Assembly: GCA_022606135.1 (NCBI GenBank)
Contig: JABYQN010000008.1
Location: 2,232,001 to 2,296,000 of the forward strand
DNA length: 64,000 nt
From: Fomes fomentarius
Lineage: Eukaryota; Basidiomycota; Agaricomycetes; Polyporales; Polyporaceae
Direction of reading: 5' to 3'
Under the pieces are notes generated by a model. It worked only from the letters and a program-made list of their open reading frames with translations. It made no database searches and had not been told where the DNA came from. This document shows positions 1 through 59,940 of this stretch, one piece after another. Both the position numbers and the translations under genes were made by a program. Within the stretch, counting starts at the first letter, position 1. Every line of letters begins with the position of its first letter.

Positions 1-968
1 TACAGACCCGGACTCGGAGTAGCCCTGACCCACCGGCTACACCCGCTGACTCACAATCGACTTTCTCCCTTCCTGCTACTGTGCTTCCAATCCACAGTAA
101 CCAATCCGGCCATCCGCTTGGCACAGGGGCGATAGTAGCCATTGCAGTAGCCTGTAACGGCACCGTGACCGTGACCTTCCTGTTTTGGACTCACCTAGTT
201 ACGCTCTACGCTACGTCTCGTTTCTCCAGACGAACCAACGCCAGTACACGGCGTTGGCACCCGAGCCCCGTCCCACCTCGTCCTCCGTACCCCTGTACTA
301 CGTCTCAGACCCTCGAATCAAGTCTTCGCACTCAGACCTCGCCGGGCTCGGGCTACAGCCCGTTACAAGTAGCCGCTCCCGTTCTTGGCACCGTCACGAG
401 CACATTGCTCTTCCTCTGGTTACTGCTCAAACGTTGCTCACACAAAAGGTATAATAAGGGTGTATCACTCAGTTGTACGTGGACAGCACGCCTATGAATG
501 TCCTTTAGATGCTGACGGCTTCTTCCCGACCTTGCAGCCGAGTACATTGATACACTCTCCGCTACGACCGAGCAAGTGAAAATGAGACCTACTTCCTCCG
601 CACGCTGCGCTACCATTGATGCAAATTTCAACTTGGATCCTAGTGTCCTCCCCAGTCCCTTCATGGCTACGTCTCCTCATAATACCCCTCAGTATCTGCA
701 TCCCAGAAAGGCTGTACACTGCGAAACCGGAGTATCGCGGTGTGCTCCCGACGGATGTGAAGGCGGAAACTTCTTCAACGGAGATGTCATCGACGTCTGC
801 ATGGACAGCCCCAGTGCTGGCGCCCAGCGGCAGGAGGTGGATGGAGATGTGCGTTTAGCAGGGGGTCGGCGGACATTAGAGGGAGTTCATCAGATCGAGT
901 TGAGCATGGACGGAGACTCGGCGTCTCATTCGACTCTTCCACCTCCGTACTCCCAACTGAGCGCGTGA
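1..968 (+). CDS. PYM1: PY-tail single-pass membrane protein, class A tail (5' end cut by window edge)
   Basis: Coding sequence enters from the left edge. A Ser/Thr/Pro-rich stretch is followed by a Gly/Ala-rich hydrophobic run (about 110-185). A second hydrophobic segment in the same frame (about 385-440) ends in Lys/Arg residues, the usual juxtamembrane pattern. A GT donor lies near 449; the acceptor is not certain because the best AG (536-537) does not restore phase. The tail exon (about 538-968) contains the box DGDVRLAGG and ends LPPPYSQLSA. Box and PPPY end place it in class A. Having two hydrophobic segments and an unresolved splice is odd, so the copy may be partly decayed. Function unknown; by family pattern a surface protein whose tail offers a WW-domain ligand. 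Confidence 0.5.
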
Positions 969-1820
969 ACTCGTGCAAGATTCACTGATAGACGATGTAG
1001 CCCCCGTGGTTTCTCTTCCTGCTTATGTTTGTGTTTGTTATGTACCCATTGCGCTTTCTTCCCTTCAGTTGCTTTGTACACATGGTCGCTGACTCGGAGG
1101 CTGATCCAGGATGACATTTGGAGTCTGTCTCTACTACTATGTCATCATACCCGTGTCTGTACACAGGGGCTCAATTCACGTGAAGCTGGTACCCTTGTAC
1201 CTAAACAAGAAAGAAAGAAAACCCATCATCAACGAAAAGTAACGAAGGTAAGCTCGCGTCCCCGCATCGTGAATAGAACCGTCCGGGGTGTTCGCACGTG
1301 ATCGACCGCCCAAGAAGCTACGAAGCATTTGAGAACTGATGGCTCCATAGGGTGAGTTCACACGATTTACAGCCTATTCCCATCCCATATCCGTACGTCC
1401 TACCGTCTACGATGCAGTAGGCTTGCTGGTTTGAAGTCGGACATATCAGTCGAGCGAGCATGGACTACTACTTCTCGGACTCGGAGACATGGCGAGCAAC
1501 ATGATATCAATTTTATCAGCATGATCCCTTCCCTCAGCAGCACGCCCTCAATTAGCAGACTGCCAAGATCAAGGTAGGGCTCGACTTGCATTTTGACATG
1601 ATCAATCCAAATTCAACTGCGATCAACCACAGACAATGTGATCCTCCACCCTCTGTAGGGGCGAGTCATAGACGCCTCATTCTCATATATCATAATGCGC
1701 CCCGTCGATCATACACAAGAAAGAGAGGTTGCTTCACACCGCTTCGAACGGTGCCTTTTCTAAAAAGTACAAAGTCCAGATGACGGCTCCGGGTGGCGAA
1801 GACTCATCGCTCCCCCTCCC
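969..1820. other. intergenic, no supported gene
   Basis: Only short open frames without family resemblance are seen. The stretch holds the 3' flank of PYM1 and the presumed promoter of PYM2. No repeat was recognised. Confidence 0.4.
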
Positions 1821-2830
1821 ATGGCGACCCCCTTGCCTTCCGCCGTGTCCGTTCTCACCGTCAAGAATGGCATAACGATCGTGTCATATCCACCCGTCAC
1901 AGATGAAGGCGTCACAGACGTTGGCTACACTGGCGGTGGTAACGACGGAAACACAAACCCCACCGATGGAACCACCAGACCAACTGAAATCAGCACGACG
2001 AGCACAACTCCCCTCCTGATCACCTCCGACTCGCACGACACAATCACTGCAATATCGACCGATATTGCTCAGGTTACAGAAGGAGTACAAACGTACTCAG
2101 CTCCTCCACTCGGTGTGGGTGCGATCGTCGGTATCACCGTCGCTGTTGTTCTGTTTGTGGCTGCGATGGGCACAGTGGTCATGTTCCGCTGCGTGCGTCG
2201 CGGGCGCAAACAAAGGCACTATCCTATGGGACGCCCTGAAGGTGCGGGTAAACATCTAGTATGGCCCGGTACGTTCCTTTGAGACAACTTTTTCCATATT
2301 CATTCATGCATATTATCTTGAAAGGACGACGCCGATCACACAACTCCCTCGGGCAGTCACCGTTCATGCAGCTACGGCCAAACGACTCCCTCCTTCGTAC
2401 ACAAATTCCAAGCGCTTCCGAATCCCAGAGTGCATCAAGAATAGACTCTCGCGAGAAGGCGCTGTCAACTACTCTCCGGTCGTCTGTCAATTCACGTGCC
2501 GACCTTGAACGTGCCGTGATTTCGGGTCACCCTCGCAGCCCCCGCTCGCCATACCACGCCACCACCACTATGCACACTCTTGACTCGGACGCTCCTCCCT
2601 CCTACCGGAGGTTCACGTACAATCTTCCTGCTTACGAGAAAGGGAATGCCTCACGCTCTGAAGAAGCTCCAATTGTTCGCTCGAAGAAGAAGAATCGCGT
2701 TGTCCGGCCCGGGTTGGCCGTGGTTGATGCACGGCCACTAGAATCCGTAGATCATGTCGAAGATGCACGGAGTGACACAGGATCTACTCCCTCAACCGTT
2801 CCGCCTCCATACTCGGAAGCGGGGGTATAG
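1821..2830 (+). CDS. PYM2: PY-tail single-pass membrane protein with several PY motifs
   Basis: Two exons, 1821-2241 and 2325-2830, joined in phase 1 across an 83-bp intron (2242-2324), give about 308 residues. An acidic, Gly/Thr-rich outer part precedes a TM helix at about residues 98-122 that starts GVGAIVGITV. Arg/Lys residues follow at once. The tail is long, Ser/Arg-rich and probably disordered. It carries APPSY, NLPAY and the C-terminal VPPPYSEAGV, three [L/P]PxY-type motifs. The DGGVRLAGG box of other class A tails is missing. No signal peptide is evident at the ATG chosen (1821), so an upstream exon or signal-anchor topology is possible. Role unknown; the motif number suggests multivalent WW binding. 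Confidence 0.72.
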
Positions 2831-2859
2831 TTGCGACAGTAGGACAAGACCGTCGTGGG

Positions 2860-4440
2860 CAATGATGCCAGGAGCGTTGTTCGACGTCTCAAATAGTGAG
2901 GTCTTCACGGTATGTGACCATCAGAATGCGCTGACATCTCTCTCATCAGGTTTCGGTGATACTGGTACTGTGAAGACGAGAGTCGCACCGTGCTTGTCGA
3001 AGATCAATCAGTCAATGCCGCCACCCGACCCGACCGACGTTGCAGCGCCCTTCATCGGCTTATCTCTGTATTACCCTTATTAATTGGACGCGGAGTACGC
3101 CCTCTCCCCTCCCATCTCCTGTCCTCCAGGAGCCGCGTTGCCCTGTATGACCGGGCTACCCACACTCCTTCATACACGCCTCCTCGCTCACAGAGCCCCA
3201 GATTTCAGCTTTGGATTCGGGTTCAGCGCCCCGTTCATCACAGGATTCGAAGGTGCTGGCAGAGCTACGGAGACATCAGATCAACGTGTAGGATCAGATT
3301 CGACTCCCCCTCCGACCGATGTCCACACCTCCACTCCTACGCTGCCTACCACTACAACCGTGCCTACGTCCTCCAGCTCCTCTGCCAGCTCCCGCGCTCC
3401 GTCTTTGCCGCCATCATCTGCGCCCCCCTTTCCTTCCGTGTCCAGCACTCGAACACAGATCCCCTCGAACACGTTACCGACCACTACTTCTCAACCCACT
3501 GCTCTTCAAGACTCGGCCGGGTCTACCAGCGAAGATTCCCAATCTTTGACGGCATCAGCCTTCACCCAGACGCAGACCGTCACGCAAGTGAATGATCCTA
3601 TCATCACTAGCGCGCCCCAAAAATCGTTGGGCGGGGGCGCGATTGCCGGAATTGCAGTAGGAACCACTCTACTTGCAGCGCTTCTCGTGGTCTTCCTCGT
3701 CTTGCTCTATCTTCGACGGAGACACCGACAGGAGGGCAGCGGAAAGCCGGAACATCTTTTTACGGGAGGCGGGAAATCCGGAGATGGAGATAAGTTTCCA
3801 AGTGGTATGTTCGAAACTTAATGGTGTTTATTGTCACTCATGTCTACAATCGTTTCAGATCCTTGGGATATACCGCCTTTGAATATCGAGGATACTTTTC
3901 CTTCACCCACGCTGAGTCCCTCTTCAGACGCCTCCGACCGTGCTACCATCGCCCACTCGATCATGATCAATCCCGCTAGTACGCTAGAGAAGCCCGAGTC
4001 CAGAGGTCACATCCGACCGCCACAGGAGCTCCCCATCGGTGCCGTGGGCGGAACGCAGAGAGCAAATGGCAGGCTGACGCACTCGCCTCTTCGTATACAC
4101 GAGACGGATGGAGGCGTGAGACTTGCAGGGGGACGACCAGGCTCTGAGACGGGTTTACTGTACGACGATGAGGACGCTCCAAGCGATGATGCTGGGGCGA
4201 CTCTTCCTCCTCCGTACTCGGAGGTACGATACTGATGCATGGAGTACTGTGATCGTGTTGATCTGAGCCAGTATTGTGATGCCGCAATGGAAAGAGCTGA
4301 AGTGAGCGAGGACGAGGCGGTGAAGTTGGACATTGAATTGGTACGCACTCTAATGGTAGAACGGCCATACAAGATTCGCCTCGTAGAGACACATTTTGTT
4401 CACTGAACGCGAAGGCCGGTCGATGGGGAAGACTCGAAGA
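2860..4440 (+). repeat. duplicated unit, left copy (contains PYM3)
   Basis: The PYM3 gene and both flanks match 8.91-10.44 kb in direct orientation. Recognisable shared stretches are the upstream part around the TCATCAGG segment (2945/8993), most of the coding region, the intron position, and the 3' flank after the stop codon. The unit is about 1.5 kb. It reflects a duplication across the GDSL relic that now lies between the copies. Confidence 0.75.
3147..4235 (+). CDS. PYM3: PY-tail single-pass membrane protein, class A
   Basis: Exons 3147-3804 and 3859-4235, with a 54-bp intron (3805-3858, GTATGT..CAG) in phase 1, give about 344 residues. The ATG at 3147 aligns with the start of paralogue PYM4; no ATG lies further upstream in frame. 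A Ser/Thr/Pro-rich outer region leads to a TM helix (about 162-188) starting GGGAIAGIAVG, then RRRHRQ. The tail has DGGVRLAGG and ends LPPPYSEVRY. The N-terminus is not a clear signal peptide, so extra 5' exons are possible. The stop codon inside the intron means retention would truncate the protein before the PY end. Best read as a surface protein with a WW-ligand tail. Confidence 0.75.
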
Positions 4441-6760: not shown

Positions 6761-8500
6761 GTTGGTATGGATGCGACTGCACCTGTGTCGCATGGATTGT
6801 CTCTGTTGCACTCTTGGTGAGTAGTCTGATTCACGTATGTTGGAGTCCGGCGAGCAGGAAGGTGAGTGCAGGCCCGGCCATATACGCTTAACCCCCGGTG
6901 TAGGGGATGAAGATCATGGGGCACGATGTGGAGGTGTCTGAGGCGCTTCGCCATCACTACATACACTTGCTGCTGGTCGGATAAGGTAGAACGTCGTGTG
7001 GGTAGGGTCCGGATGTTGAATGAATTGTTGGGTATACCAAGGGCGAAATCAAACAGCATTGCATTGTTGAGCTACCCTTGCTCCTTCGCCGACCATCCAC
7101 CGTGACCTAGAGCTGGCATCACATCTGTCAAGGAGGTCGGAACACTGATCCCGGATTGTGCACAGTTACCGACTCATCTTGTATCAGGCACTGGCCTAGG
7201 TACAGAAAGCAGATTTCCGGTTCGCATGTAAAACAAGTCTGGTTGCGGGCTACAGCAATGCGTCAAGCCTAGTGCGGCACGTTCACAGATGTAGCGATCA
7301 CGAGCTACAACGCATCATGCATTAGAACACCCTCGTCGATCTGACTGGATCTTGGCGCGACGACCCAGCGTGAGGCCTTTAGAAGGACCTGATTCGAGAA
7401 CTTGGATCATGATAGTGGACACTCAACAACAGGATGTAATAGGAGAGAGGTGAGTACATGCAGACATTGATTGTGGACGGACGGGGTCCATGATTGCAGG
7501 GTAATCCCACCATCCAGGGAGATGGACTCAGACAGGATCCTCCTTGTGGCCGTGAAGGGGTGCGTGTTTCATCTAGCTCAAGTAGGACTCGTGGCTGATT
7601 CTACTTCTTGTTCTATCGGAGCAGTTCGATGGCATTGACCGGATTTTACGATCAGAATCGGACATTATAGCCATTTACCAATTGTTCCTATCTATCTTTG
7701 TGCGTCTCGGCCGCCCTTCAACTCAATCTCGCTCTCCATGCACAATGGAAGCGACGAATATGATGTCGTGTCAGGCATGTAGTGATGATCAGGCCACATT
7801 GTCGTGATTCGTGCTGGTGTATCTCTCAATCATCATGATGGTACTGACATAGCCTCAAACTCACTTCATGACTTGACAACTCCAACAATTACGACGCTTC
7901 TTCGTTCTCGCACTGGATTCGTACCTACCCGTTTCCTCTCCTCCTCCGGCACCATCTCGTCTAGCTCAAACCTCACACTATCATTCCTCAACCTCTAAAC
8001 CAGGCATCACCCTGCGGAATTCTGCTTGTCATTTCGTGTCACGACTACAACTACTCCCAAAGTTGACCTACTGCCTCCTCTTAGCGGTGCTGATCGCCCG
8101 TGCTCGGGCTGAAGATATCGCAATCAATGTGCGTCGGAAGTGATAACTTGAGAAGGCGGACAAGGCCAGTCCACTCTGTCGATCCTCTCAAACCGTCAAA
8201 TGGAACCGCCATCAGGCTGTATCTGGAGTTTAATGCAACGTCATTCTCTGGAATACCACCGTTGCTGCGGGAACCAGTATGTCGTTCTCCGTCGCCGACG
8301 GTGCGACCAACATGACCTCTTTTTGACATTAGATCATCGCACGGGCAAGGGAGGACAGTAGTCTTACCACGTCTATCATATCGACGGGAAAGAGTTCCGC
8401 ATCCGTTATAGGGACAGCAGGTGTACTTTCCTATCGTCCTTCTGGTCGCGCCATTGGGGAGCACCGTCCGAGCTAGAAGAGAGACATTATGCGACCGCTG
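6761..8500. other. intergenic, no supported gene
   Basis: No intact gene. A Ser/Thr-rich short frame at 7804-7998 could be remnant stalk sequence but nothing confirms it. Confidence 0.35.
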
Positions 8501-8511
8501 ACGATGAGCAG

Positions 8512-8909: not shown

Positions 8910-10440
8910 CTGAAATGTTGTTCGACATCTTCCGTCCACAGCATATGTCCCTTCACGTCGTAGTTTGCTGACATCTCTCATCAGGCTTCGTTGATACTGA
9001 GAAGACGAGGGGAACATCATACCCATCGAAGATGTGTTCGTTGCTGAACCGAAGCGCCCTCGGCCATCCGCGTCCGTCAAGTACAAATATCTCTGTATCA
9101 CCCACAATTCAAGGTTGCCCTCTCTTCCTATCCTCTCCAGAGACTCTAGACTGGAAGCCCTAGAAGCATGACTTGGCTAACCCCCGTTCTGCATACACGT
9201 CAACTCGTTCACAGAGTACCGGAATTCGCCGGCAGCACCGCATTCACCACAGAATTCATGATGTCCGTGACCATCGAGGGTCCTAGCAGAGCTACGGACT
9301 CTACTACGACGAGCCTCCCTGGGTTACTCCTTTCTTCATCGCTGTTTTCCTCCAGACCCATTTCTATCTCTTCTATCTCCTCCATCAGCTCTCACATATT
9401 TTCCACGCGCTCTCACACGCTTCCTTTGCCAACTGATGTCGTACGCACAACTGTAGATCCTTCACCTGAGACCCCAGTTCCTTCCGTGTCCAGCCCTCGA
9501 GCACAAACCCCCTCTGACGTGTTACCCATCCCTTCTCCTCCCCCCAAAGATTCCGCGGAGTCCATCGTTCAATATTCCCAATCTTTGACCGCATCAGCGT
9601 TTACTCAGACGCAGACCATCACGCAAGTGAATGATCCTATCATCACTAGCACGCCTCAACAATCGTTGAGCGGGGGCGCGATTGCCGGAATTGCAGTAGG
9701 AACCGCTCTGCTTGCAGCGCTTCTCGCGGTCTTCCTTGTCTTATTCTATCTTCGACGGAGACACCGACAGGAGGGTAGCGGAAAGCCGGAAAGTTTTTTC
9801 ACGGGAGGCGGGAAATCTGGAGATGGAGATAACGCCCCAAGTGGTATGTTCGAAACTGGACAGCCATGTTTACTATCACTAATATCTCCAGTCGTTTCAG
9901 ATTCTCTGGATATACCGCCTGATATCCCGGATACTGTTCCTTCACTCCTGCTTGATCCCTCTTCAGACGTCTCCGACCATGCGATCATTGCCGAATCGAA
10001 CGGAGTCAATCCCGCTAGTACGCTGGAGAAGCCCGACCCTATCGGTGCCGCGGGCTCGCCCCCTCGTTTACACGAGATAGATGGAGGCGTGAGACTTGCA
10101 GGGGGACGACCAGGCTCAGCCCTCCCGTACGACGATGAGGACGCTCTGAGCCGAAGGGATGATGATGGGTCGACTCTCCCTCCTCCGTACTCGGAGGTAC
10201 GATACTGATGCATGGAGCACTGTGATCGTGTTAATCTCAGCCAGTATTGTGATGCCGCAATGGCAAGAGCTGAAGTGGGCAAGGACGAGACGGATGTTGG
10301 ACATAGAGCTCACTGTACACACTCCAATGCTGGACGCTAGACAATCATACAAGTTCCGCCTTGTAGAGACACATTCTAATTGCTGAACACGAAGGCCGAT
10401 CAATGGGGCGGAGTCGGAGAGCGACTTGACAACTGTACGT
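8910..10440 (+). repeat. duplicated unit, right copy (contains PYM4)
   Basis: Direct repeat partner of 2860-4440, covering the 5' flank, coding region and 3' flank of PYM4. The 3' flanks after both stop codons are nearly identical for more than 50 bases, so the duplication is fairly recent. Confidence 0.75.
9168..10208 (+). CDS. PYM4: PY-tail single-pass membrane protein, class A (paralogue of PYM3)
   Basis: Open from ATG 9168 to the stop at 10208. The intron of PYM3 is conserved at 9844-9900 (GTATGT..TTTCAG), but here it is 57 bp, a multiple of three, and has no stop. The spliced form is about 327 residues; the retained form is 346. TM helix about 169-195 starts SGGAIAGIAVG and is followed by RRRHRQ. 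The tail has DGGVRLAGG and ends LPPPYSEVRY, identical to PYM3. The outer part is rich in Ser/Thr/Pro. Its 3' end converges on the GH92 gene. Function unknown; probable surface protein with a WW-ligand tail. Confidence 0.8.
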   Translation: MTWLTPVLHTRQLVHRVPEFAGSTAFTTEFMMSVTIEGPSRATDSTTTSLPGLLLSSSLFSSRPISISSISSISSHIFSTRSHTLPLPTDVVRTTVDPSPETPVPSVSSPRAQTPSDVLPIPSPPPKDSAESIVQYSQSLTASAFTQTQTITQVNDPIITSTPQQSLSGGAIAGIAVGTALLAALLAVFLVLFYLRRRHRQEGSGKPESFFTGGGKSGDGDNAPSGMFETGQPCLLSLISPVVSDSLDIPPDIPDTVPSLLLDPSSDVSDHAIIAESNGVNPASTLEKPDPIGAAGSPPRLHEIDGGVRLAGGRPGSALPYDDEDALSRRDDDGSTLPPPYSEVRY

Positions 10441-10614: not shown

Positions 10615-13600
10615 CTACACGTTGTCGAACCCCCCCGTTGACAACGACGGCGGCAGCGCACCCGTACCATTCCCGCTCCCGCCACAGGTCACATTGATAT
10701 CATCAGTCAATGTCAGCTCGATCGTCGCGCCGCGCTCGAACAGGTCCCACTCGAGGAAGCAGTTCGACTTGGCTGCCTCCCCGTCGATCGTGACGTTCTT
10801 CACAAACACCGTCCCGCCTATGCCGAGTGGCGGGTTGCCAGCAAAGTTGGTCGCGATGATTGTGGTGGTAGTGTTGAAGACGGGGTTGAAGAAAGAGACG
10901 GAAGGGAAGTATGGGGAGGAGAGGAGGAATTGCCGGGTAGCAGGCACGGGGTAGAGCCCTGCGAGGAAGAAGGCGACGTAGCTGCCCATGGCCCCGGAGT
11001 CTGGTGGTTGTGTCCATAAGTTTGGAAACAGTCGATGAGTAGATAGTGAACAGAGAGCGATCGTACCATCGTTGCCGGGCAGACCAGTAGTAGCGGTGCT
11101 GAAGAACTCTGAGATGACTTGGCGCGAGCGCTGGGTGCTGCGACCGGGGGCATTCGCATAGTGGTACATGTATGGAATCTGCTGTGAGGGCTCGTCGGTT
11201 GCGTCAAAGTAGCTCTACACGAGCGATTAGTCATAGATATAGATCTGAGTGAACAAGCTATGCACGCCATACCCTGTCGAAGATGTAGTCAAGGCGAGAG
11301 ATGAACTTCTCCGGCCCTCCTTGGAGCTCGATCAGCTTCGCAGTGTCTTGTGGGACGAACTGGGAGTACTGTAGTATAGTAGATGTCAGAGCGGGCGCGG
11401 ACTATGAATAGGAGCGGCGGTTGGGATACATACGACAATAGGTGACGACTCGTAGAAGCCATCAAAGTTCGTGTTGAATAGGAAGCAGTTGCCGCCAAGC
11501 GGCTCATTGATACTGCAATGGCCTGGATCTGTATATCCAAACGAACCGTTCAAGAAACGAGGCTATCAAACAGACACGGGTGAGCATTAACCTGGAATCT
11601 GATCAGGGGACGAAACACGCACCTGCATCATCCCAACAACCTCAAAGTTATCCGGCGCCACAACATTCGGGTTCCAGCTTTTCACAAAGTTACCTGCCCG
11701 CTCAACATATTTCTTCGCATCGTCGGTCTTGTTGAGTAGCTTTGCCACCTGCGAGATCGCGAAGTCACCGAACGCATACTCGAGCGCACGCGAGACCTGC
11801 TTCGTGTTCGCGCCGCCGGGCTCGATGATGTCTTGGGGGATGTAGCCAAGTTCCTTCCAGACGTTCACTTGTCGTCCCTGGAGATTGAAGTTTGGCGGCT
11901 GGACTTCGGCGTCTGCGAGCAGGGCTGCGTAGAGCGCTTCTGGGTCGACGTTGAGAGCCTGGGAGTGCTCTGCGTACCTGTAAGATGAGGCGAAGAAAGT
12001 CAGAGAACATCCCCGCGGTACTGGCAGAGACGCTGCACACACTTCACGAAGAACTCGCCGAGTATGGGGTCCGCGTCTGGTACATGAGAACCATCAGAAT
12101 ACTTGAATCGAATCACTGGGGGGAATCCGTACCACTACCGCCCTGGATAAACTGCTGCGCGGTGGCTCCTCGGCATTCGGGAAGCCATCCCTCGTGTTGC
12201 TGGATGTTGATCATGCCGCGGACGATGCGCGCGAAGTTTTGCGGGTCGTGCAGAGACATGAGTGGGTATAGTGTACGGAAGGTGTCCCACTACACCCCGA
12301 GTTCAACATACTGAGCATCTACCGGAATGCGAGAGCTAGACGTACATTGCAGTAGAACGAGTCGTAGTACGGCTCAGTGGAGTTCCATAGCGGATTCTCG
12401 CCAGAGTCTGCATTTGATCAATCACTCCGTTAGTTGAGTGACCCTTCGACCAAGAAGGGCGCGAAACTCACAATCAGCAGGAGAGATGTGCGTCCTGTAA
12501 AGCGAGCTATAGAATAGCTCGATCGTATCAGCGTCCACGCCCTTAGCGCCCACCTGGATCCGTCCTAGGAGCTCATTCCACTCATCCCTCGCAGCCTTCC
12601 TCACGCCCTCAAAATCGAAGCTCGGGATCTCCGCCTCGGAGTTCTGGCACGCTTGCGCGGTCGAAATAAACGACATGCCGACGCGCACCATGATCGTCGT
12701 CGTCCCATCGGCGCTCTTCGTGTTCTTGTTGAACCCGAGGAGCGCGCCGAGCTCGCTGCGGTAGCCCTTGTATTCCTGCAGGCCGTCGACGAAGCCCTTG
12801 ATGGGCGAGTTCCCCAGGTAAGTACCGAACTCTTTGGGCTTGCCGAGGTCGAACCCCACCCCCTTGAAATCCATGCATGTGAAGACGCGGAACGTCCCTG
12901 GGCCGAAGCTCGCAGCGAACGTGGAGCCGGCTGGACACGTTGGTCGTCAGTATCGAGAAGGCAAAGAGAAAGCTTAGGGAAGTTTGAAAGACCTCACCTG
13001 TTACGCGTGAGGTGTCAGGGTCGATGTGGACGATTGGGTTAGAGCTGCTCTGCTGGCCATCATTGGTAACGTCGATCACGAGGCGAGGGATCGCCGAATT
13101 GGAAGGGAAGGTGTATCTTGAGTCGCGGGTGGCAGTCAGACTTCGCGAAGGCAAAAAGGGGGTACAGGGAAGGGCGCATCACGAGCTCACCTATGCAGAG
13201 CCGCGCGCTTCGTTGCGGTGAGCTCGACGCGGATGTTCGTTGACTATCCCCGTAGCTTCGCATGAGACGTATGTTCATGACGTCTTTCAAAGATTTGCAC
13301 TCACCAGGTTGGATGCAAAGTATCCTGGCTCGGCTGCATCGTCCGGACGGCCTGTCGTACAACCGCCGTCGTTCTCAGCTACTACGACACTTTGGGTTAT
13401 GCAAGAAGAGGAGACCTACCGTCTAAGAGAAGCTTGCGCAAGACCTTGCGTGAGTTGATGTCCGTCGGACAGACTTCAAATCGATCGATGACGCCCAGAC
13501 CGCAGTTGAGGAGAGGGAAAATTTTGAAGACAGACAGTGGGACGGACTGGAGAGTGTGCCATGAGCTGATACACTTGGATGAAAGATGAGTGAAAACACA

Positions 13601-29083: not shown

Positions 29084-29208
29084 CCTTCCCGTAGCGGCGG
29101 CAGTAATGAAGAGAGAGAGAGAGAGATGACCCGGGAAAGAAGAGGCAAGGAACCTGGGGAAAAATCTCACGAGAATCCACACTGTTATACCAATAGTTGG
29201 CTCACCCG

Positions 29209-29216
29209 GTATATAG
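29209..29216 (-). promoter_or_regulatory. TATA-like box of the sugar transporter
   Basis: CTATATAC on the minus strand lies about 127 bases before the start codon. Confidence 0.35.
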
Positions 29217-43529: not shown

Positions 43530-43687
43530 CCAATCCAATTCTTGAGGCTGTCCAAGTCTCGGGTACGCTTCAATGTATCACTGGTTCTTCAGCTATCAGC
43601 ACAACACTTTCATACATCAATCCTATGTGGGCACACAAATACCCTCGCCGATGTCGATAGCCCCTCTCTTCCCTTCACCAACACGTC
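43530..43687 (+). repeat. 5' flank shared by PYM11 and PYM12 (copy 2)
   Basis: Partner of 40095-40249; see there. Confidence 0.6.
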
Positions 43688-45759: not shown

Positions 45760-46651
45760 ATGACTGACTCCTTCCTCCATGACCCAGCCTCTTGTCAACA
45801 AAGTGCGCCTATCAGGGGCGGGTTCACTGTCTCTTTCCAATTCGGCATAGGAGATAATACGCCACCGCAACGTGAAAGCCAAGGGCAGACCTGCGGTGTG
45901 TTTCTAATGCAACAGTACTGGTCGTATCCTTCTCTAATACAGTGAAAGGTTCCACAATGCCCTTGTCTCCTCCACCAACTATCGATTCTGCCGTCAATAT
46001 CCAGCCTACATCTTCGCAAAATGGCATCCCTCCGTCCTCTTCCAACCTGTTGTCCCCTGTAACGTCTACATCGATCGTTACGATAGTCTCTGGAGAGACC
46101 ATCGTCATGACTGTGCACGACGACGACAAACCAACTCAGAGCAGTGGAGAATCCACGATAAAGTCAGACGACTCTGTGGGATCGATCTCGGTATCGACAG
46201 AGGTTGTGACGGTGACCTCAGTCCCGCAGCATCCCGGGAGAGTATCAAACGGCGGAGTAGCGGGCATAGCCATAGCTATATCCATCTTTCTTCTACTGGT
46301 GCTTGCCGGTGCTTGGCTCATCTGGAAACGCCGACACCACCGAAGGTCGTCGGGCGGCGTTTCGGGCATCTCACAATTCGGTACGTCACCGGTACTGTCA
46401 CATCGCCGGTTCCATCTGCATCTGTCTGACATTTACTGGTGTTCAATTCTTCCTAATTTCTGATATTCGCAGCGCCTTTGACACAGCAACCTGATCCTGA
46501 AATACGACCTGCGTACCCAAGCACGCCGCGAGACACGAAGCTACGCCCTGTCTCGGGAAAGACAGGCCTTCCTCCGCTCCCAGAGTATGGGTACACAGCC
46601 CCCGAGCCGCAGATACACAGCGAGAGTGAACTCAAAGCACATAGTCTGTAG
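45760..46651 (+). CDS. PYM13: PY-tail single-pass membrane protein, class B
   Basis: Exons 45760-45895, 45943-46380 and 46473-46651 join in phase (introns 47 and 92 bp), about 250 residues. The short outer part has two Cys (ASCQQ, QTCG). Ser/Thr stalk, then TM about 147-172 (GGVAGIAIAISIFLLLVLA) and WKRRHHRR. The class B tail reads EIRPAYPS and LPEYGYTAPEPQI. In the first motif the usual LPPY is RPAY, so only LPEY is a good [L/P]PxY match. The shortest intact member in the window. Confidence 0.75.
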
Positions 46652-47953: not shown

Positions 47954-48597
47954 ATGGCGACAACGGTTTTCAGTGACATTGCAATGCTCAGAGGACTCTA
48001 CCCTTCCGATTACTCGGCGTTCTCTTGTGTTCTGATGTATAGAACGTCATCACTAGCATGGTGGGACCGCATTCAGAAGCCGATACAAAGTCGTTACCAT
48101 CTACATGAGCTACCCGAGACGATCGTGCAGACAGTGACAGTCCGCTTGACCCCGGACCATTGTGTGGAACAATCGAGGCGCGCGATCCCAGCCACATTTA
48201 TCATCGTCTTCATCGTCTTCATCGTCTTGCTCATCTTTGCGGGTGCTCGGTTGCCCTGGAGACGCTGACAGCCCGAGTGCTGTCGCAAGCCATCTCCTTC
48301 CTGCATTGGTTCTTCCTGATCGAGATTGAATTGACATCCATGCCTGATGTCTCAGTCATCATCATGGCGATACTTCCAGATCCCCTACATGACGGTGAAG
48401 ACCTGCCGCCTGGTCGCAGGATGGCTGTGTATCGGAGTGTCATGCTTTCCCCCTTCCACGGTATGGGTACCTAATGGATGAGCCGCAAGTTCACTACGGG
48501 GACTATAGTATATCCATGGATGGTGCGTCAGCCCGTAGTTTGCGTACTGTCCACTAGATGATCCTCCGCTGGTACCATTTCGCCGCTCCGAGTAGAC
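47954..48597 (+). pseudogene. PYM14: relic of a class B PYM gene
   Basis: A TM-like run (IIVFIVFIVLLIFAG, from a TCATCGTCT triplet repeat) ends in PWRR and a stop at 48268. Downstream, GEDLPPGRR matches the first class B tail motif but the Tyr is lost. A different frame then gives LPRYGYLMDEPQVHYG, the second class B box. The end PFRRSE before the stop at 48597 matches other class B termini. The parts lie in different frames, so the gene is dead unless the model is very unusual. Confidence 0.62.
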
Positions 48598-49138: not shown

Positions 49139-50462
49139 ATGTCGCTTTTAGGGATTTCGGAGCCCTGCCCGCTCGTTACGCGAGAGTCATTGTCTATCGT
49201 TACCTGTAACATCGACGGCGTGTTCAGCTCACTGGATACGCTCAATCCGATCAGCACAAGTTCTACCATAACGAACAAGAGGTTACCTCTGGGTATATTC
49301 CACTGACCGCCTTGCTCGTCACACGCTGAAGTTGACATATAGGTACAATGCCTGAAGCTACCGTCCTTCCGTCTACTACAACCCAGGATGAGTCACCTGG
49401 ATCTACCTCGCTCATCGTCGTGTCCTCTCCTATAACCAAGGACGAGTCGCCTAGGACTGCGGGACCCAATATTGACCCCACACCCATCCACGTGACAAAG
49501 ACGGCTACGGCTACTCAGACAGTCACTACTACGATGACGGCTACGGACGTCGCCCCATCTATCTACCAGGAGATCCCTGCATCTATCGTATTCTCAACAT
49601 CAGTATCAGTTTCGTCGGCTCAGTCGTTATACACCACCGTCACCACGACGTCGAGCGCGCTGACAACGACTGTCAACGTCTCCAATTCGCCCGCTTCATA
49701 TGCGGATCTGCACCCGGACAAGTCTAGCATAACTCCTGGTACTGTGGCTGGAGTCGTTCTCGCCAGTGTAGTGGGCGCCGTGGTCGTTCTGTGTGCATAC
49801 CGGAGGAGAAGGAAGCTCAGGACGTCTAGCGAGGCCTCGCAGTCTCAAGATAGTACGTCATCTCCGAGTTTCTCGGAGCTGTTGTAGGACGAAGGGTGCT
49901 GATGAGTTGTCTGGTGACAGGACTGCTCTCTACGAGCACTCACTTAGCTCGATACTCATCAACTCAGGGCTCTCGTATCAGTGACGAGGAAGCGGGCCTA
50001 GACTGTCCACACGAGGCCAGGAACAGACCATTTGATCACTACTGTCATGTACCCAACACGGTTCACGACGAGGAGGCGGTTGCTGCTACCCTCATACATC
50101 CTCTTGTGGCGGCCGAGCTCTCAGCGACAGGCTCTCCGACAAGCACCTCCCCAGGCCACTCTGTTTCTACGGAGAAAACCGGAGACCCATCACTCTTCGG
50201 AGAACGATCAGAGGAGGGAAGTCATAGAGCATACTCGCCAGTTCGTACCGAGCGCGTCGAGGAAGAGCACGACTTCCAGGAGATGGGTGCCTTGCAGGAG
50301 GGCCAGATTCTTTACGAGATGGATGGTGGTATATGTCTCGAAGGAGGTCCTCCAGGAACCTTGAATCGGACGGGGGCTTTGCGCTCGAGCCGGACTCCAT
50401 TGACTCTAACGCTTCCTCCACCATATCAACTCCACTCTGATCGACGCGGTAGTCAGCAATAG
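49139..50462 (+). CDS. PYM15: PY-tail single-pass membrane protein, class A with C-terminal extension
   Basis: Exons 49139-49292, 49343-49852 and 49948-50462 are in phase, about 392 residues. The short outer part has two Cys (EPCPLV, VTCNIDG), like class B heads. A Thr-rich stalk with TATATQTVTTT leads to the TM (about 183-203, GTVAGVVLASVVGAVVVL) and YRRRRK. The tail is class A: YEMDGGICLEGGPPG, then LTLPPPYQLHSDRRGSQQ. The eleven residues after PPPY are unusual; other members stop within five. A class B-like head with a class A tail may be another old exchange. The ATG is provisional. Confidence 0.74.
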
Positions 50463-51223: not shown

Positions 51224-52144
51224 ATGGCTCTTTCTCACCCCCAAGATACTACTGCATTGACGAGTATCAACATCCCCGAGGCTGGTGATGTACGCTTTCA
51301 CGATGAGCGTTCAAGAACACATGTCCCTTATAAAGTTAATCCGCATTCGATCCAGAAATCACCATGTACGCTATAGTCCCCTCCTTGTATGCCTTTCACT
51401 GTATACTGATGTGTGTTCAGCAGTCTCTTCGCCGGCAGTATCGACCACTTTCACGCCTCTAACAACTACTAGCCTTTCCTCGTCGGCAACCCCTTCTCTT
51501 TCCTCTTCAATCCTATCTTCACCCTCCACAAGCCCTACTACGTTGTTGCAAGAAAGTTCATATGGAACTTACTCATCGTTGTCGGCGCCGGAAGGCTCAC
51601 TAAGCACATTCACTTCCACCGCCGCCGTTAATACCTCCAACAGCAATTCGAGCTTCTTCATCGTTCAAAGCACAGTAACCTCAGCTTTGCTGGCGTCCGG
51701 AGCGTTGGTGTCTACTGTAGCACCAACGACCGCGAGCCCGTCAGTGTCAACTGTAGCACAACCGACCGCCAGCCCGTCGGTTGCTGCAGGCGGAGGGAAG
51801 GCCGGAGAACCGAGTGGCGCAATGATGGATATCGTGGTACTAGGGTCGATCCTCCTTAGTATTCTTGCAATCGGAGGAGCGTGGATGCTGTGGAGATGGA
51901 GAAGTGGCCGGCGCAAGAGAACAGCCCCGTACAGTCCGCAGTCGGTTGATGATAGTAGGCGACCTTCTTTCATCCTCATACTTTTCTCGATACTCACTAC
52001 CATGATTCTCAAACGCCAGACGATTATCCCCCGCCACCTTACGTCTTGTCTCAGCAGAAGAAGGGTCAAATAGACTTAAAGGGAAATGGCAAAGATTCGC
52101 TCCCGGAATATGGATATACGTGCTACGAACCCCAGATCCCCTGA
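51224..52144 (+). CDS. PYM16: PY-tail single-pass membrane protein, class B with PPPPY
   Basis: Exons 51224-51365, 51421-51954 and 52020-52144 are in phase, about 266 residues. After a short head, the stalk is Ser/Thr-rich with a repeated VAPTTASPSVST unit. TM about 180-205 (MDIVVLGSILLSILAIGGAW), then RWRSGRRKR. The short tail (about 42 residues) has DYPPPPYVLSQ and LPEYGYTCYEPQIP at the end. It combines a true PPxY with the class B box, linking the two tail types. No signal peptide; the frame is open upstream of the ATG to 51041. Confidence 0.75.
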
Positions 52145-52257
52145 CTACCACGAGCCGCCATGCGAGCACGATGTATCGTTGGGTGCGCATATGTTTTATC
52201 CACTTCGTCGCACTTGCGAGTCATTCTAAATACTTGGTAATCGTTATAGAGCATCTG

Positions 52258-53490
52258 TCATAGGGAGCTCCACGAGAGAGTTCTAGTACCGGTGTGGACT
52301 GCGTGCATCAGGCGATCAACCCTCTCCTGACGTGCCTTCTTGCTCGCTCTCCCATTCAACTTGAGGCTCGTGGGCAGTGTATCCATACGTAGGGAGAAAC
52401 TGCACGGTTTATCTGGGAAGGGAGGATACTTCTTGTTGGGTTCGACTGAGGGCGAGTACGCGGGGAGAACTACATGGCTGTCCGTAGAGCGGATAGGCGC
52501 TGCGAGAAGACGTCGTAAGTGATAGTTGAGATGAGGGTGCGAGTAAGACGCCACAGAAGAACTGTCAACGTGACTACGCACCGAAGGTGAATGGGCGACT
52601 CGCCATTGAACTTACGCCGACGTCGTCGACGTACGAAGAAGACCGGTATCGCCCCTGCTACCAGCACCAAGAGGAGTGGGATCCCGATAGCTAGGCCGAG
52701 CTTGGTGTCCCTATGCTCGTTCCCTCTTGAGGCAGGTGTGCTCGTACTGTACGGAACATACACAAAAACGGTTTGGTTGTTATACGCCGTCGTGGGCACC
52801 GTACCAGCAGTCACAGTCACAGTATTCCACCCTGTGGGAAGCACCGATATATTCGTAGCGAAGACGGAGGTCGGGGCATTTAGGCCTGGCCAGTTGGTAC
52901 TCGGTGAGGAGTAACCTGACGAAACATCACCGGTTGCTGAAGTTGAGTTTAGGCTGGGCTTGTTAGGGACCGAAGTAGGGGATTCTGAAGGCGGAGACGA
53001 AGAGCTACGAGGATCCGGAAGGGAGCTCATGCCAGTGGGTGTCTGGGTGGAAGGCGGTATCGTAAAAAACACATGAGCAGTGATCATGCTCTGTGTCGTT
53101 GAGCTAGATCCTGCATTTGCTGCGAGTACAATTAGCAGGCGATCGGTGTCGTCCAGAGCTACGTACACGCTGACGATGTCCCAGACGTACCGGTAGTTGT
53201 CGATGTCGATGTCCCAGCTGAGCTAGTATCGGCGGTCGTCGTGCTAGTATCACATGGGTGTGTGCCGCCACCTTGTTGAACATGCGTACACGATTTGCTT
53301 GGACTCATGGGCAGTGTGAAGCTGACGAGGGCACAGTGAGGAGCGCGCAGAGTCGAGGGTGAGTTGTATACACGCAGATGGCATATGATTGGCACGTACC
53401 AGAGGAACGATAATATTTAGCTACACCTGCTGAGAAGGCTATGGTAGAACTCAATGAAAGCAGGTGCCTCGCAACCAAGGGCTTTTTCAT
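52258..53490 (-). pseudogene. PYM17: broken copy of PYM19 in the left arm of the inverted repeat
   Basis: Reads from 53490 (MKKPLVARHLL signal peptide) through the same exons as PYM19. Two deletions are visible against PYM19. A 5-base loss lies just before the end of the TM exon (near 52,600), which changes the phase at the intron. A 4-base loss in the tail (near 52,400) abolishes the LPPYGYTIHEPQ box, leaving LRMDTLPTSL. The first tail motif LPAYSP is still readable in isolation. The ectodomain and TM remain nearly identical to PYM19. Probably a recent pseudogene, though a membrane protein without the distal motif could still be made. Confidence 0.7.
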
Positions 53491-53797
53491 TCAAGGAGCG
53501 GTTGAGCGCCATACTATGTACGACGACTGGGATCATTGCCTGCTGCGTTCCAGATCTAGAGCGATGCTTGTCACTCCATGAACGGCATAATACTTGCCTC
53601 CGTACACCTAATCTAACATCTCTGCGGAGTACAGTGCCCAATGCACCTACCATCATGACGAAGCCTGGCAGCGTCTAACTGTACTGATCGTCGGTCTGAA
53701 CTCGAATGAGAGCGCGACACGCCATCTTGTTGTATACCCAGAGTCTTTCTGTATCTGGAGACTGTACCCCTTCAGTCGCATCCCTGGGAAAGGTGTA
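52300..53797 (-). repeat. large inverted repeat, left arm (about 1.5 kb)
   Basis: Reverse complement of 56,602-58,110. Homology covers all of PYM17/PYM19 and about 300 bases upstream of the start codon. Differences are scattered substitutions and small indels. The spacer between arms is about 2.8 kb. Confidence 0.85.
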
Positions 53798-55339: not shown

Positions 55340-56326
55340 ATGTCACTCACACCGCATCAAGGAGAGTTATGCACCGACTCTTTGAAGAGTGGGGAATCCT
55401 GCTATCACAGCGGGAGTGAAACGCGCAGAATCTTCTCAACTCCACCGCCCCCGCATGTTCCATGTATGTTCAGTTTCCTCATACCTTTCACAGTTGACAT
55501 CCTTACCCGGTATTAGCTATGGGATTGTTAACCTGGCCTTCCACTCTCTCAAGCACAACGAGCACACTCCCATCGTCTTCGACTTCACTCATACCGTCGA
55601 GCTCAAGTCAGGCTCAGATTCCGACATCTACAACTACAACAGCGATCACTACATCCACTGCACTCCGCACGAGTACCGCCGCCGCAGATACAGGCACACA
55701 TACCGCGACTACGGTCGTAGCAATAGCAAGCACTACCACACTTCCGACGACGGTTGTTGGACCCACCGTGACCTTGTCGGTATCGACTTCATATACCCCT
55801 GCTGTCATCTCAGGTGCCGCGGATGATGGCTACACAGCCCGGGCAAGACTGACGGGTACAGTCATAGGCGCTGCCACCGCAACATCCATCGTTTTCTTGC
55901 TAGTCATTGTAGGAACTCTGTTCTTCCTGCACCGCCGACGCCGTCGGGACTCCGAGCTTCGTGGTGTCCCAAGTCGGTTCTTCCGCTTCGGTGCGTGATC
56001 ATCTTGATACGAACGCTCATTTCTTCGCCCGGCTCACCGCTTTTTGTTGCATCTGCTGTAATCTGTCAATCTGCCGCATCCCATGCCACATCCGTGCGGG
56101 GTTTGCAGGGCCGCAGTATGGCGATGAGGACCTCCCTCCCTACTCTCCGCCGGAAGGGACAAAGAAGCAGGATAAGACGGGACTGGTACCTCTGCCTCAG
56201 TACGGATATACGGCTCCCGAGCCCCAGCTTGAGGATGATGCAGAGGTTGTTCTCGAAGGAGATGGCCGGTCAACCGGTGACTCGGATGATCTCCAGGCCG
56301 TGCCACTCCCTCGCTCAGAGAACTAG
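55340..56326 (+). CDS. PYM18: PY-tail single-pass membrane protein, class B
   Basis: Exons 55340-55463, 55517-55990 and 56109-56326 join in phase, about 271 residues. The head is short with two Cys (GELCTD, ESCYHS). A Thr-rich stalk, then TM about 151-178 (LTGTVIGAATATSIVFLLVI), followed by HRRRRR. The class B tail reads DEDLPPYSPPEG, LPQYGYTAPEPQL and ends PLPRSEN; LPPY and LPQY fit [L/P]PxY. It lies in the spacer of the large inverted repeat and is a distant relative of the arm genes, sharing their TM-exon ending (PSRFFRFG versus PSRPFTFG). Confidence 0.8.
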
Positions 56327-56601: not shown

Positions 56602-58110
56602 CCAGGGAAGCGATTGAGGGGGTACGGTCTCCAGATACAGAAAGACTCCGGGTATACAACAAGATGGCGTGTCGCGCTCTCATTCGAGTTCAGACCGACG
56701 ATCAGTTACAGTTAGACGCTACCAGGCTTCGTCATGAAGATGGTAGGTGCATTGGGCACTGTACTCCGCACAGATGCTAGAATAGGTGTACGGAGGCAAG
56801 TATTGTGCCGTTCATGGAGTGACAAGCACCGCTCTAGATCTGGAACGCAGCAGGCAATGATCCCAGTCGTCGTACATAGTATGGCGCTCAACCGCTCCTT
56901 GAATGAAAAAGCCCTTGGTTGCGAGGCACCTGCTTTCATTGAGTTCTACCATAGCCTTCTCAGCAGGTGTAGCTAAATATTATTGCTCCTCTGGTACGTG
57001 CCAATCATATGCCGCCTGCGTGTATACAACTCACCCTCGACTCTGCGCGCTCCTCATTGTGCCCTCGTCAGCTTCACACTGCCCATGAATCCAAGCAAAT
57101 CGTGTACGCATGGTCAACAAGGTGGCGGTACACACCCATGTGATACTAGCACGACGACCGCCGATACTAGCTCAGCTGGGACATCGACATCGACAACTAC
57201 CGCTACGTCTGGGACATCGTCAACTTGTACGTAGCTCTGGACGACACCGATCGCCTGCTAATTGTACTCGCAGCAAATGCAGGATCTAGCTCAATGATAC
57301 AGATCACAAGCACTACCAGTGTCTCTTCTACAATACCGCCTTCCACCCAGACATCCACTGGCATGAGCTCCCTTCCGGATCCTCGTAGCTCTTCATCTCC
57401 GCCTCCAGAATCCCCTAATTCGGTCCCTAACAAGCCCAGCCTAAACTCAACTTCAGCAACCGGTGATGTTTCGTCAGGTTACTCCTCACCGAGTACCAAC
57501 TGGCCAGGCCTAAATGCCCCGACCTCCGTCTTCGCTACGAATATATCGGTGCTTCCCACAGGGTGGAATACTGTTACTGTGACTGCTGGTACGGTGCCCA
57601 CGACGGTGTATAACAACCAAACCGTTTTTGTGTATGTTCCGTACAGTACGAGCACACCTGCTTCAAGAGGGAACGAGCATAGGGATACGACGCTCGGCCT
57701 AGCTATCGGGATCCCACTCCTCTTGCTGCTAGTAGCAGGGGCGATATCGGTCTTCTTCGTACGTCGACGACGTCGGCGTGAGCTCAACGGCGCTCCGAGT
57801 CGCCCGTTCACCTTCGGTGCGTAGTCACGTTGACTGTTCTTCTGTGGCATCTTACTTGCACCCTCATCTCAACTGTCACTTACGAACGTCTTCTCGCAGC
57901 GCCTATCCGCTATACGGACAGCCATGAAGTTCTCCCCGCGTACTCGCCCCCAGTCGAACTCGACAAGGAGTATCATCTCTTCCCTGAGAAATTTGGGGCC
58001 CTTGCTCTCCCTCCGTATGGATACACTATCCACGAGCCTCAAGTTGAATGGGAGAGCGAGCAAGAAGGCACGTCAGGAGAGGGTGGCCGCCTGATGCACG
58101 GGGTCCACGC
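56602..58110 (+). repeat. large inverted repeat, right arm (about 1.5 kb)
   Basis: Partner of 52,300-53,797. This arm carries the intact gene. Confidence 0.85.
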
Positions 58111-58153
58111 TGATCCGAGAAGCGCGTTGGTGCCACTGCGTCGTTCCGAGTAA
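56903..58153 (+). CDS. PYM19: PY-tail single-pass membrane protein, class B, intact arm copy
   Basis: Exons 56903-56997, 57072-57226, 57274-57816 and 57900-58153 are in phase, about 348 residues. Signal peptide MKKPLVARHLLSLSSTIAFS. The outer part has Cys residues (KSCTHG, HPCDTS) and a Thr/Ser stalk, then NWPGLNAPTSVFATNIS and VTVTAGTVPTT. TM about 222-247 (LGLAIGIPLLLLLVAGAI), then RRRRRR. The class B tail has EVLPAYSPPVE, LPPYGYTIHEPQVEW and ends PLRRSE. LPAY and LPPY are both [L/P]PxY. The first donor was chosen for phase and could shift by a few bases. Confidence 0.8.
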
Positions 58154-58337
58154 TCCATGGTGCGTCTGTCTAGCTTGGAATGGAAGACGTCTTGTTCACG
58201 TCTCAGATATCTGTCCAGAGCACAGGAAGACATGACTTTCGAAGAACCCGGTCCGACACGGATCGTGCGAGTTGCACGAACAATTGTTTCTATTTGTCCA
58301 TCGATGATACCCATCACATAGCAATACATCCATCTTC

Positions 58338-59940
58338 CTAATAAACTTGATAAGGCGGGGGGAGCGTCAAGGCCATCGCGCGGGTATCGAACGTCTGCCG
58401 AGCATCACCTTCCCTTCCCGGAGGACCTCCGGCGACGCGCACGCCACCATCAAGTTCGTACACGACGTGCTCGCTGACCGCACTGATGGGCTCGGAGGGT
58501 GTTCGTGCCGCAGCGTCGGGTGTATCGTACGTTCGATAAGATTGTAGGCTTTGAACATCATACGCCTGTGAGCGATGAGAAAGAGCGTCGTTTAATGACC
58601 GTGTATTTTCTGGAGAGCGAGAACTTGCGACGTTGTTCTTTTCGCCCCCTTTAGATATAGGGAAGGACTCGGGCAGAATCCGGTGTGACTCTCGGTGTAA
58701 GGTTGGTGCGGTCGTGGTCGGACCTTGGCCGATGACGGATTCCAAAGCGTGTGGATGGATATCGAGAACAGAAGAGGCTGTGGACTCCGATGGGAGCTCC
58801 GAAAGTGTGCCTCGTCCGGACGATGCCGAAAGGAGGGACGAGCGGGAACTGTGCCACATACCCGCTTTCGAAGATGTGGGCAGCATTGCCATAGGGTGTG
58901 ATGAAGCAGCCTGTGGTCGATCTGCACCGTTCGTGTGTTCACGGACAGACAGATGATCAGCAACACACACATCAATCTATGCGGTGTGGAACTCGGACGT
59001 ACCTTCGAGGTCCTTCACTGCTGGGGCTGGGAACTGCTCAATCGCAAAACGAGCCGTCTTCCTCCGTTTGTATCTCCAATACAGCGCGCCGACCACAATG
59101 CAGATGATTGCAACCACAGCTGCGATTATTCCGGCAATGAGGGCGAGATGCGACGTGTGTCCAGGCGAAGCTTGAGACGTGGGCGTGACCGATGCTGATG
59201 CAGATGCAGATGCACTTGAGTCCGTCGCGCTTGTGCCTCTTGGAAGGTCGCCGGACGCTCCGGCTGTAGCATGTCCCGAGGATAACGAAGTGCCAGAACC
59301 GCCTGCGGAAGGATCCGAACCGCCCGATGCAGTAACGGACGAGCCAGGACTTCCGCCTGTTTGAGACGGCGATGGCACGTCTGTCGTAGCAGAACTGGTA
59401 TCATGATCTCCATCGGATGTCTGCTGGCCCGAGGTATTGGAAGGAGTTGAAGTGGGGGAAGGAACGTCAGGCGGCTGAGTGGATGCCGTCGTAGCATGTG
59501 GTGGCGTAGGATTTGGATTTGAAGGCGGAGTTTCGCTCGTGCTAGTCGCAGGGTCCGAGTTAGGTGTGGAAGTCGGTGTCGCGGTGCCTCCAATACATGT
59601 ATCATCATCGCTCTGCTCGACGGTGAGGAGCTGCGAGAGGACTCGCCGTTCGCTTGATAGCTCGAACTGGATCCTGGTTCCCGCAGCCACGTCCGTCAGC
59701 CAGCTCACAGGATTGCTCGACGCGGAGAAGCTCTCGACGGTCCCGCGGTATGTGCCTTGGGTAAGGATGTGCACTGAGATGTCGAACGGGGGCGCTTGGC
59801 CATCAATCTTCAGGGTCGTTGTCCCGCATTGTTGCGGAGAGTTGGCGGCTTCAATCGTGACCACCGCGGCAGTTGGAGAGACGAGGAGGGAAAGAAACAG
59901 GAAAGAGAGACAGATTTGAGAGCATGCCGTGTGCGATGCA
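58338..59940 (-). CDS. PYM20: PY-tail single-pass membrane protein, class A, with two-Cys ectodomain
   Basis: Tail exon 58338-58921 and main exon from 59003 upward, joined across an 81-bp phase-1 intron. The main exon gives QQCGTTTLKIDGQAPPF to DDTCIGG, the two-Cys pattern of PYM5-7. The stalk is Ser/Thr/Gly-rich with an (SA) repeat. The TM is LIAGIIAAVVAIICIVVGAL, then RYKRRK. The tail has YELDGGVRVAGGPPG and ends LTLPPPYQVY. A leader-like run (CLSFLFLSLLVSPTAA) lies directly upstream in frame, but no in-frame ATG is found in that exon, so the first exon is unresolved. Otherwise well preserved. Confidence 0.78.

Follow-up and report, generated by a model that had tools for sequence, protein, structure and literature searches.

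A clustered family of predicted single-pass membrane proteins with a bipartite DGG-PPxY tail in Fomes fomentarius

Why should one short stretch of a fungal genome hold a row of genes whose predicted products vary on the outside of the membrane and keep a short motif on the inside? The question is raised by 64,000 nucleotides of Fomes fomentarius (contig JABYQN010000008.1, C8:2232001-2296000, in a genome of 40.9 Mb and 24 contigs). We call this whole stretch the window and count positions from its first letter unless a contig is named. Its genes encode membrane proteins with PPxY or LPxY (PY) motifs in their tails and fall into two classes, A and B. The family is real, extends past the window, has no Pfam model and is undescribed in searchable papers; a search of open-licence PMC papers found it named nowhere. 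The reading that we prefer, and that we put at about an even chance, is that class A belongs to a hitherto undescribed family of type-I single-pass receptors or adaptors at the cell surface of Agaricomycetes, one that has undergone lineage expansion and in which clustering drives docking to the ubiquitin ligase Rsp5 and sorting.

The cluster and its extent

Six-frame translations revealed 18 PY-tail loci at 3-59978, 11 of class A and 7 of class B, and one extra relative, g6 (18089-19464), in which an ectodomain and a transmembrane (TM) segment are present and PPxY is absent. One of the seven class B copies is interrupted by stops, and another is known by its second half alone. A stalk, a Gly-rich TM segment and a basic juxtamembrane stretch are recognised in the translations of the cluster loci. 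Hydropathy places one TM helix, followed by basic residues, in most loci and homologues, and in most modelled loci a small intron lies after the juxtamembrane stretch with the tail exon behind it. Two NCBI proteins of the same contig, P0001 and P0003, have splice junctions identical to those of our models g10 and g7, with the start of P0003 lying further upstream than that of model g7. The Tyr of PPxY is followed by three residues in six class A loci, by five in four and by 11 in one. Open reading frames (ORFs) that end in PPxY number 12 in the window, against a mean of 0.53 and a maximum of 3 in 60 dinucleotide shuffles (six-frame count, at least 60 open codons, at most 16 residues behind PPxY); one of the 12, at 51238, is probably non-coding.

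A sequence-only reading of positions 1-59940 had described a dense cluster of about twenty single-pass proteins with one shared tail and a PPxY near the C-terminus in most class A members. The cluster is borne out, as is the position of the motif in class A, where 10 of 11 loci have at most five residues after Tyr. The shared tail holds for class A; two different tails, those of class A and class B, had been mixed. The cluster continues past the claimed span: in the 2509-kb contig, the DGG element described below has 14 more sites at 2306-2413 kb.

A tail with two kept parts

In alignments the class A tail is bipartite, with DGG[VI]R[LI]xGG first and PPxY second, at a median spacing of 30 residues (range 7-39) between the Asp of DGG and the first Pro of PPxY. 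The commonest residues are R-[YRH]-[ES]-[TV]-D-G-G-V-R-L-A-G-G-[PR] ... S-T-L-P-P-P-Y-x-x-Y, and the kept signature can be summarised as R-x-[ES]-[TV]-D-G-G-V-R-L-A-G-G-[PR], followed close to the C-terminus by [ST]-[LFM]-P-P-x-Y. Ten of the 11 class A tails of the window contain the DGG element, and no class B tail does. It allows the family to be tested without using PPxY. When the whole genome was searched with a degenerate DNA pattern that encodes only DGGVRLAGG (at most two mismatches), 41 sites were obtained, against 5 with the reversed pattern as control; a span of 181 kb (C8:2232.8-2413.3 kb) holds 24 of the 41, 10 of them inside the window and 14 beyond. Thirty of the 41 were examined as loci, the remaining 11 including g13, which carries PPxY. 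In 24 of the 30, no more than 16 residues separate PPxY from the stop, whereas residue shuffles lead one to expect 0.81 such loci.

Ser, Thr and Pro make up ~31% of the tails, so the motifs might be chance products of proline-rich, low-complexity sequence. This explanation is contradicted by both shuffle counts (12 ORFs against 0.53, 24 of 30 loci against 0.81) and by the homologues, which include annotated relatives in other species, and we regard it as almost certainly wrong. DGGVRLAGG is conserved about as strictly as PPxY, which predicts a second partner. Tail Lys content is 0.88-1.22%; in baseline ORFs, taken as two sets of five, it is 3.5-4.1%. Lys depletion was considered as a hallmark of adaptors and dropped as non-specific, since a comparable 0.97% was measured for five relatives that lack the DGG tail.

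The class B tail is distinct from that of class A and reads LPxYGYTxxEPQ. One such tail, searched against the genome, gave eight matches at seven places, all within C8:2276-2366 kb and two of them beyond the window. Class B is a separate family, placed only in this cluster of this genome; no class B signature occurs among the homologues returned, other species never having been queried with a class B sequence.

One tail on different ectodomains

In predicted folds the same class A tail is carried by two unrelated ectodomains. Ectodomain (i), modelled for g7/P0003, may be a two-Cys FN3/Ig-like sandwich, and ectodomain (ii) is predicted as a β-sandwich resembling carbohydrate-binding modules (CBM) of families 6 and 35. 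The structure model of P0022 places a TM helix at residues 265-293. A folded ectodomain is recognisable in four of the 19 window loci; the other 15 have a Ser/Thr-rich stalk alone, or their first exon was not found. Fold searches with ectodomain (i) ranked generic sandwiches about as high as any named family. In the case of ectodomain (ii), Pfam gave no CBM profile row for P0019, P0022, P0029, P0038, P0087 or P0101. A sequence search of solved structures yielded no convincing relative, and the best stretches of the CBM-like set lay in stalk and TM.

Two stretches of the window were considered in this connection. The interval 42830-43060, suspected to be an ectodomain relic, holds no recognisable domain. 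A short open stretch at 8234-8323 (+ strand) resembles the middle of ectodomain (i) (E 2.2e-4) and is perhaps a relic. Elsewhere in the genome, four of the 41 DGG sites form a second small group with ectodomain (i) at C15:417-442 kb (L044-L047), in which L047 has lost PPxY.

Members beyond Fomes

Three stalk-less proteins used as a homologue query gave two matches, in a search that scored only the 8000 candidates with the most shared words. A seven-row profile of ectodomain, TM and tail matched 19 proteins at E<=1, of which P0021 seems unrelated and P0009 bears a precomputed PF03302 label. Tail-bearing relatives that keep PPxY occur in Lentinus (P0005), Epithele (P0016) and Suillus (P0019, Boletales). 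A tail-only profile matched 442 proteins at E<=10. Among the 120 matches listed, most of them nameless, the named genera are Fomes, Lentinus, Ganoderma, Dichomitus, Lenzites, Trametes, Earliella, Cubamyces, Cerioporus, Pilatotrama, Polyporus, Epithele, Obba and Hermanssonia, all 14 of which we take to be Polyporales. A DGG-like element is present in 122 of 136 proteins compared. All 122 have a downstream PPxY, a figure that depends on a query containing PPxY and to that extent tells against our reading, and 115 of them have at most 16 residues behind its Tyr. In a rescoring that used the DGG half alone, 121 proteins scored at least 20 bits and each of them has PPxY, within a set picked by the full tail.

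The sequence-only reading had called for such a profile search of other basidiomycetes and had held that the outside varies and the inside motif is kept. The 442 matches place the family beyond Fomes, and PPxY in 24 of 30 DGG loci and in P0005, P0016 and P0019 agrees with the second claim. Because the motif is kept both in the Fomes DGG loci and in homologues of other genera, the objection of non-conservation, which that reading had raised against itself, does not apply to class A.

Rfam gave no match and NCBIfam only matches far below cut-off. Pfam scans covered 10 window ORFs (E<=1), 10 homologues (E<=0.01) and five further family proteins, and in none of those with the tail did a model exceed its cut-off. 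The proteins might be cell-wall integrity sensors or wall anchors of Mid2/WSC layout, their PY motif a mere signal for turnover by Rsp5. The Ser/Thr stalk and single TM would suit this, and so would the UniRef label "Mid2 domain-containing" on P0005, P0012 and P0053, which favours a cell-wall sensor over our reading, and a Pfam Mid2 score of 20.2 bits, below the 23.2 cut-off, for P0008, which has ectodomain (i) and no PY tail. No Mid2 or WSC match was found in the tail-bearing proteins scanned, however, the DGG element is left unexplained, and dozens of copies with exchangeable folded ectodomains are atypical of sensors; we consider this explanation possible, if on the doubtful side.

P0010, P0012 and P0014 (Trametes, Lentinus and Lenzites) have a tandem pair of ectodomain (i) and a different, long tail with ELPPQY, perhaps a third PY tail type. 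L026, L036, L039, P0024, P0037 and P0078 have DGGIRL[DG]GG-RPPSY tails with further PPSY motifs upstream, and their protein models show a hydrophobic segment near the N-terminus only. In P0001-P0136, R-R-x-[ES]-[TV] is frequent upstream of the DGG element; a pattern of R[RH] with a Ser or Thr behind it, in the last residues ahead of DGG, fits 46 of 122 and is perhaps a kinase site.

From the tail to a candidate partner

A WW profile run on the genome gave nine matches in seven proteins, a count that may miss WW domains cut by introns. One of the seven is the Rsp5 orthologue at C1:1072410, with the order C2-WW-WW-WW-HECT. Each of the three WW domains follows the pattern Y[YF]VDHNT..TTW and contains the class-I-like His; class-I WW domains, which bind PPxY, use that His. 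The other six proteins lack a class-I His at this position, and Rsp5 is the only protein found in this genome with putative class-I WW domains. This bears on a further explanation, in which PPxY binds a non-ligase WW domain or another partner and provides a structural link from wall to cortex, as in the pair of dystroglycan and dystrophin. The C-terminal PPPY and mucin-like stalk recall dystroglycan; the class-I His in Rsp5 alone, among seven WW-matching proteins of which intron-split domains could be missed, speaks against it, and we find it highly improbable.

The family, its architecture, the tail conservation, the predicted folds and an Rsp5 with suitable WW domains are results of computation. 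Binding of the tails to WW domains is likely. WW-HECT ligases are strongly activated by membrane-tethered or polymerised PY substrates and not by soluble ones (PMC5892558), fungal membrane proteins use their PY motifs to bring in Rsp5-type ligases for sorting (PMC10721834, PMC8050425), and yeast Rcr1, similar in layout to class A, binds Rsp5 (PMC5578492). On these grounds we propose a sequence of clustering, engagement and sorting. The outside would be an exchangeable module, either an FN3/Ig-like sandwich, a CBM6/35-like sandwich or a bare mucin-like stalk, and the inside a presumably disordered tail with a single kept bipartite signature. The ectodomain would bind a ligand, probably a glycan for CBM-like members, and binding would gather receptors in the membrane. 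The resulting array of PPxY tails could then engage the WW domains of Rsp5, and the receptor complex or neighbouring cargo would receive ubiquitin and be directed to the vacuole. A second docking site, for another partner, may be provided by the DGG element.

Several observations weigh against this proposal. Six of the 30 DGG loci have no PPxY near the stop: L025 and L037 carry LPxY, L024 and L047 have no motif, L038 is truncated before the Tyr and L041 is seemingly out of frame. The same motif is missing from g6, which has TM and ectodomain. The low Lys content makes the tail a poor candidate for accepting much ubiquitin. Foldseek returned no significant match for ectodomain (i), and neither ectodomain is found in 19 of 40 long tail proteins. 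Finally, according to excerpts of PMC5578492, central functions of yeast Rcr1 (chitin) and of fly Comm (midline) are independent of the ligase.

Few single-pass receptors with folded ectodomains have, to our knowledge, been described in basidiomycetes. A wider and tentative idea, which we think doubtful, is that of a mushroom receptor superfamily in which lectin- or Ig-like ectodomains, coupled to Rsp5 through the DGG-PPxY tail, would read glycans of self, substrate and competitors. It would be a counterpart of plant lectin receptor kinases with ubiquitylation in place of phosphorylation as output. Hundreds of database members with one short intracellular code would offer a way into the question of how mushrooms sense what surrounds them, and Rsp5 is one directly testable candidate partner.

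Growth of the cluster

The duplicated pairs are g3/g4 (direct copies, 88% over 300 nt), g5/g10, the fronts of g10/g11, and g15/g17. The last pair is an inverted duplication of 1061 nt (52601-53661 versus 56732-57792, 95% complementary, 3070 nt apart), in which the tail of g15 is broken, unlike that of g17. The cluster grows by duplication. The front and TM of g10 resemble class B g11, and its back, with a second TM remnant and the tail, resembles class A g5; this class B front on a class A back is an instance of outside exchange.

Such a locus could, as the sequence-only reading had suggested for non-self recognition, encode allorecognition or non-self receptors, whose outsides, clustered and duplicating, would recognise other mycelia or microbes. 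The 24 DGG sites in 181 kb, recent duplications, a chimera and exchangeable outsides would fit. The ratio of non-synonymous to synonymous substitutions (dN/dS, simple method) is 0.27-0.88 in eight comparisons of close copies, reaching 0.88 in the ectodomain and 0.70 in the tail of L044/L046; diversifying selection is not seen, and positive selection on the outside was rejected as a candidate. We found no open-licence PMC paper linking such genes to incompatibility, and a Heterobasidion incompatibility mapping study (PMC3489678) was matched in reference entries only. Non-self recognition is, in our view, unlikely.

Gene models and neighbouring genes

On the + strand unless stated, class A begins with g1 (3-965), whose TM exon starts before the window edge, leaving its ORF open there, and whose tail exon has DGDVRLAGG and ends in PPPYSQLSA. 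Class A-like g2 (1764-2827) has stalk, TM and a tail with PPSY, LPAY and terminal PPPYSEAGV; its DGG element is not recognised, and the tail hidden Markov model (HMM) gives only E 0.09. A long Ser/Thr stalk, a TM and a DGG-PPPYSEVRY tail are found in g3 (3084-4232, intron 3805-3858), and g4 (9150-10205) has stalk, TM and the same tail in a single open frame. A signal peptide precedes ectodomain (i) (15965-16246) in g5 (15878-17320), followed by stalk, TM, intron 16746-16796 and a DGG-PPPYQRY tail (HMM E 1.5e-28 for the ectodomain, 1.1e-15 for the tail). The exception g6 has ectodomain (i) at 18221-18493 (E 5.6e-23), stalk, TM and a tail with neither PPxY nor DGG. In g7 (20164-21552; NCBI C8Q74DRAFT_981623, P0003), ectodomain (i) at 20239-20517, stalk and TM are followed by intron 21038-21091 and a DGG-PPPYQRF tail.

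Further along, g8 (24893-25871, - strand) has stalk, TM and a DGG-PPRYQRY tail, with an uncertain intron junction. The single frame of g9 (38892-39923) holds stalk, TM and a DGG-PPPYQRF tail, its upstream exons not found. The chimera g10 (40437-41664; NCBI "hypothetical protein C8Q74DRAFT_981648", P0001) joins its class B-type front to a class A-type back with a DGG-PPPYQRY tail. Stalk, TM, DGGICLEGG and PPPY followed by 11 residues make up g13 (49336-50459). Last in class A is g18 (58341-59978, - strand), with ectodomain (i) at 59592-59870, stalk, TM, intron 58922-59002 and a DGG-PPPYQVY tail; an in-frame ATG was not found.

Among class B loci, stalk and TM are followed in g11 (43661-44685) by a tail with LPPY and LPQYGYTLDEPQV, in g12 (45876-46648) by the tail LPEYGYTAPEPQI, in g14 (51261-52141) by a tail with PPPPY and LPEYGYTCYEPQI, and in g16 (55498-56323) by a tail with LPPY and LPQYGYTAPEPQL, the junctions of g14 and g16 being uncertain. 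The second half of a class B tail exon lies at 48399-48554 (LPRYGYLMDEPQV), with no TM exon model. Stops break the tail of g15 (52319-53222, - strand), and its partner g17 (57171-58150) has a TM and a tail with LPAY and LPPYGYTIHEPQV.

Other genes lie between and beyond these loci, all on the - strand. A gene of glycoside hydrolase family 92 has exons at 11590-13178, where the exon 12425-12946 matches Glyco_hydro_92 (E 2.4e-16). Pieces of transporter-like genes lie at 27897-34160 and 60927-61361: 27897-28334 matches Sugar_tr (E 4.5e-9), 30196-30645 matches MFS_1 weakly, below cut-off, and three ORFs have no match. A 160-nt stretch at 33975 is repeated at 61367 with 71% identity.

Relation to known systems

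Dystroglycan has a mucin-like stalk, a single TM and a C-terminal PPPY, and the sequence-only reading had taken it as a structural analogue. Its ectodomain differs from those of class A and no dystroglycan profile matched in the Pfam scans of the 10 window ORFs and 10 homologues; adaptors of the Comm/PRRG4/Rcr1 type are closer in layout. The receptor or adaptor reading, partly supported, keeps its real family and its kept motif and loses that analogue; the WW recruitment, sensing, ubiquitin-dependent sorting and non-self recognition that it suggested are conjecture. Mid2/WSC sensors share the Ser/Thr-rich stalk and one TM, differ in giving no Pfam match above cut-off, and lack the folded ectodomain and PY tail that the Fomes family adds. 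CBM6 and CBM35 are enzyme modules, whereas here the sandwich is predicted on a membrane receptor, with no profile match. Snowball (snb1), a membrane family of Agaricomycetes, was ruled out by its seven TM helices, as given in the excerpted PMC10949477.

Bsd2, Tre1 and Tre2 (PMC8050425) and the wtf antidotes (PMC10721834) are likewise membrane proteins with PY motifs and ligase-dependent sorting. The wtf proteins differ in being multi-pass with N-terminal PY motifs (PMC10721834), and Tre1/2 in resembling the transferrin receptor (PMC8050425); the class A tail signature is not evident for any of these in the excerpts of the two papers. Pfam scans found no sequence relation to Comm, PRRG4 or the Rcr proteins, and the Pfam family RCR gave no row in the three sets of proteins scanned. 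In layout, Comm, PRRG4 and yeast Rcr1 and Rcr2 are nonetheless like class A, with a single TM and cytosolic PPxY and LPxY (PMC5578492), and the layout of PY-motif single-pass adaptors, one TM helix with PPxY/LPxY on the predicted cytosolic side, is what we found. Unlike those proteins, which are few and short, the Fomes family is large and has exchangeable folded ectodomains, a Ser/Thr stalk and the DGG element. In kind it is a variant of the PY-motif membrane adaptors, built from modules in the manner of a receptor.

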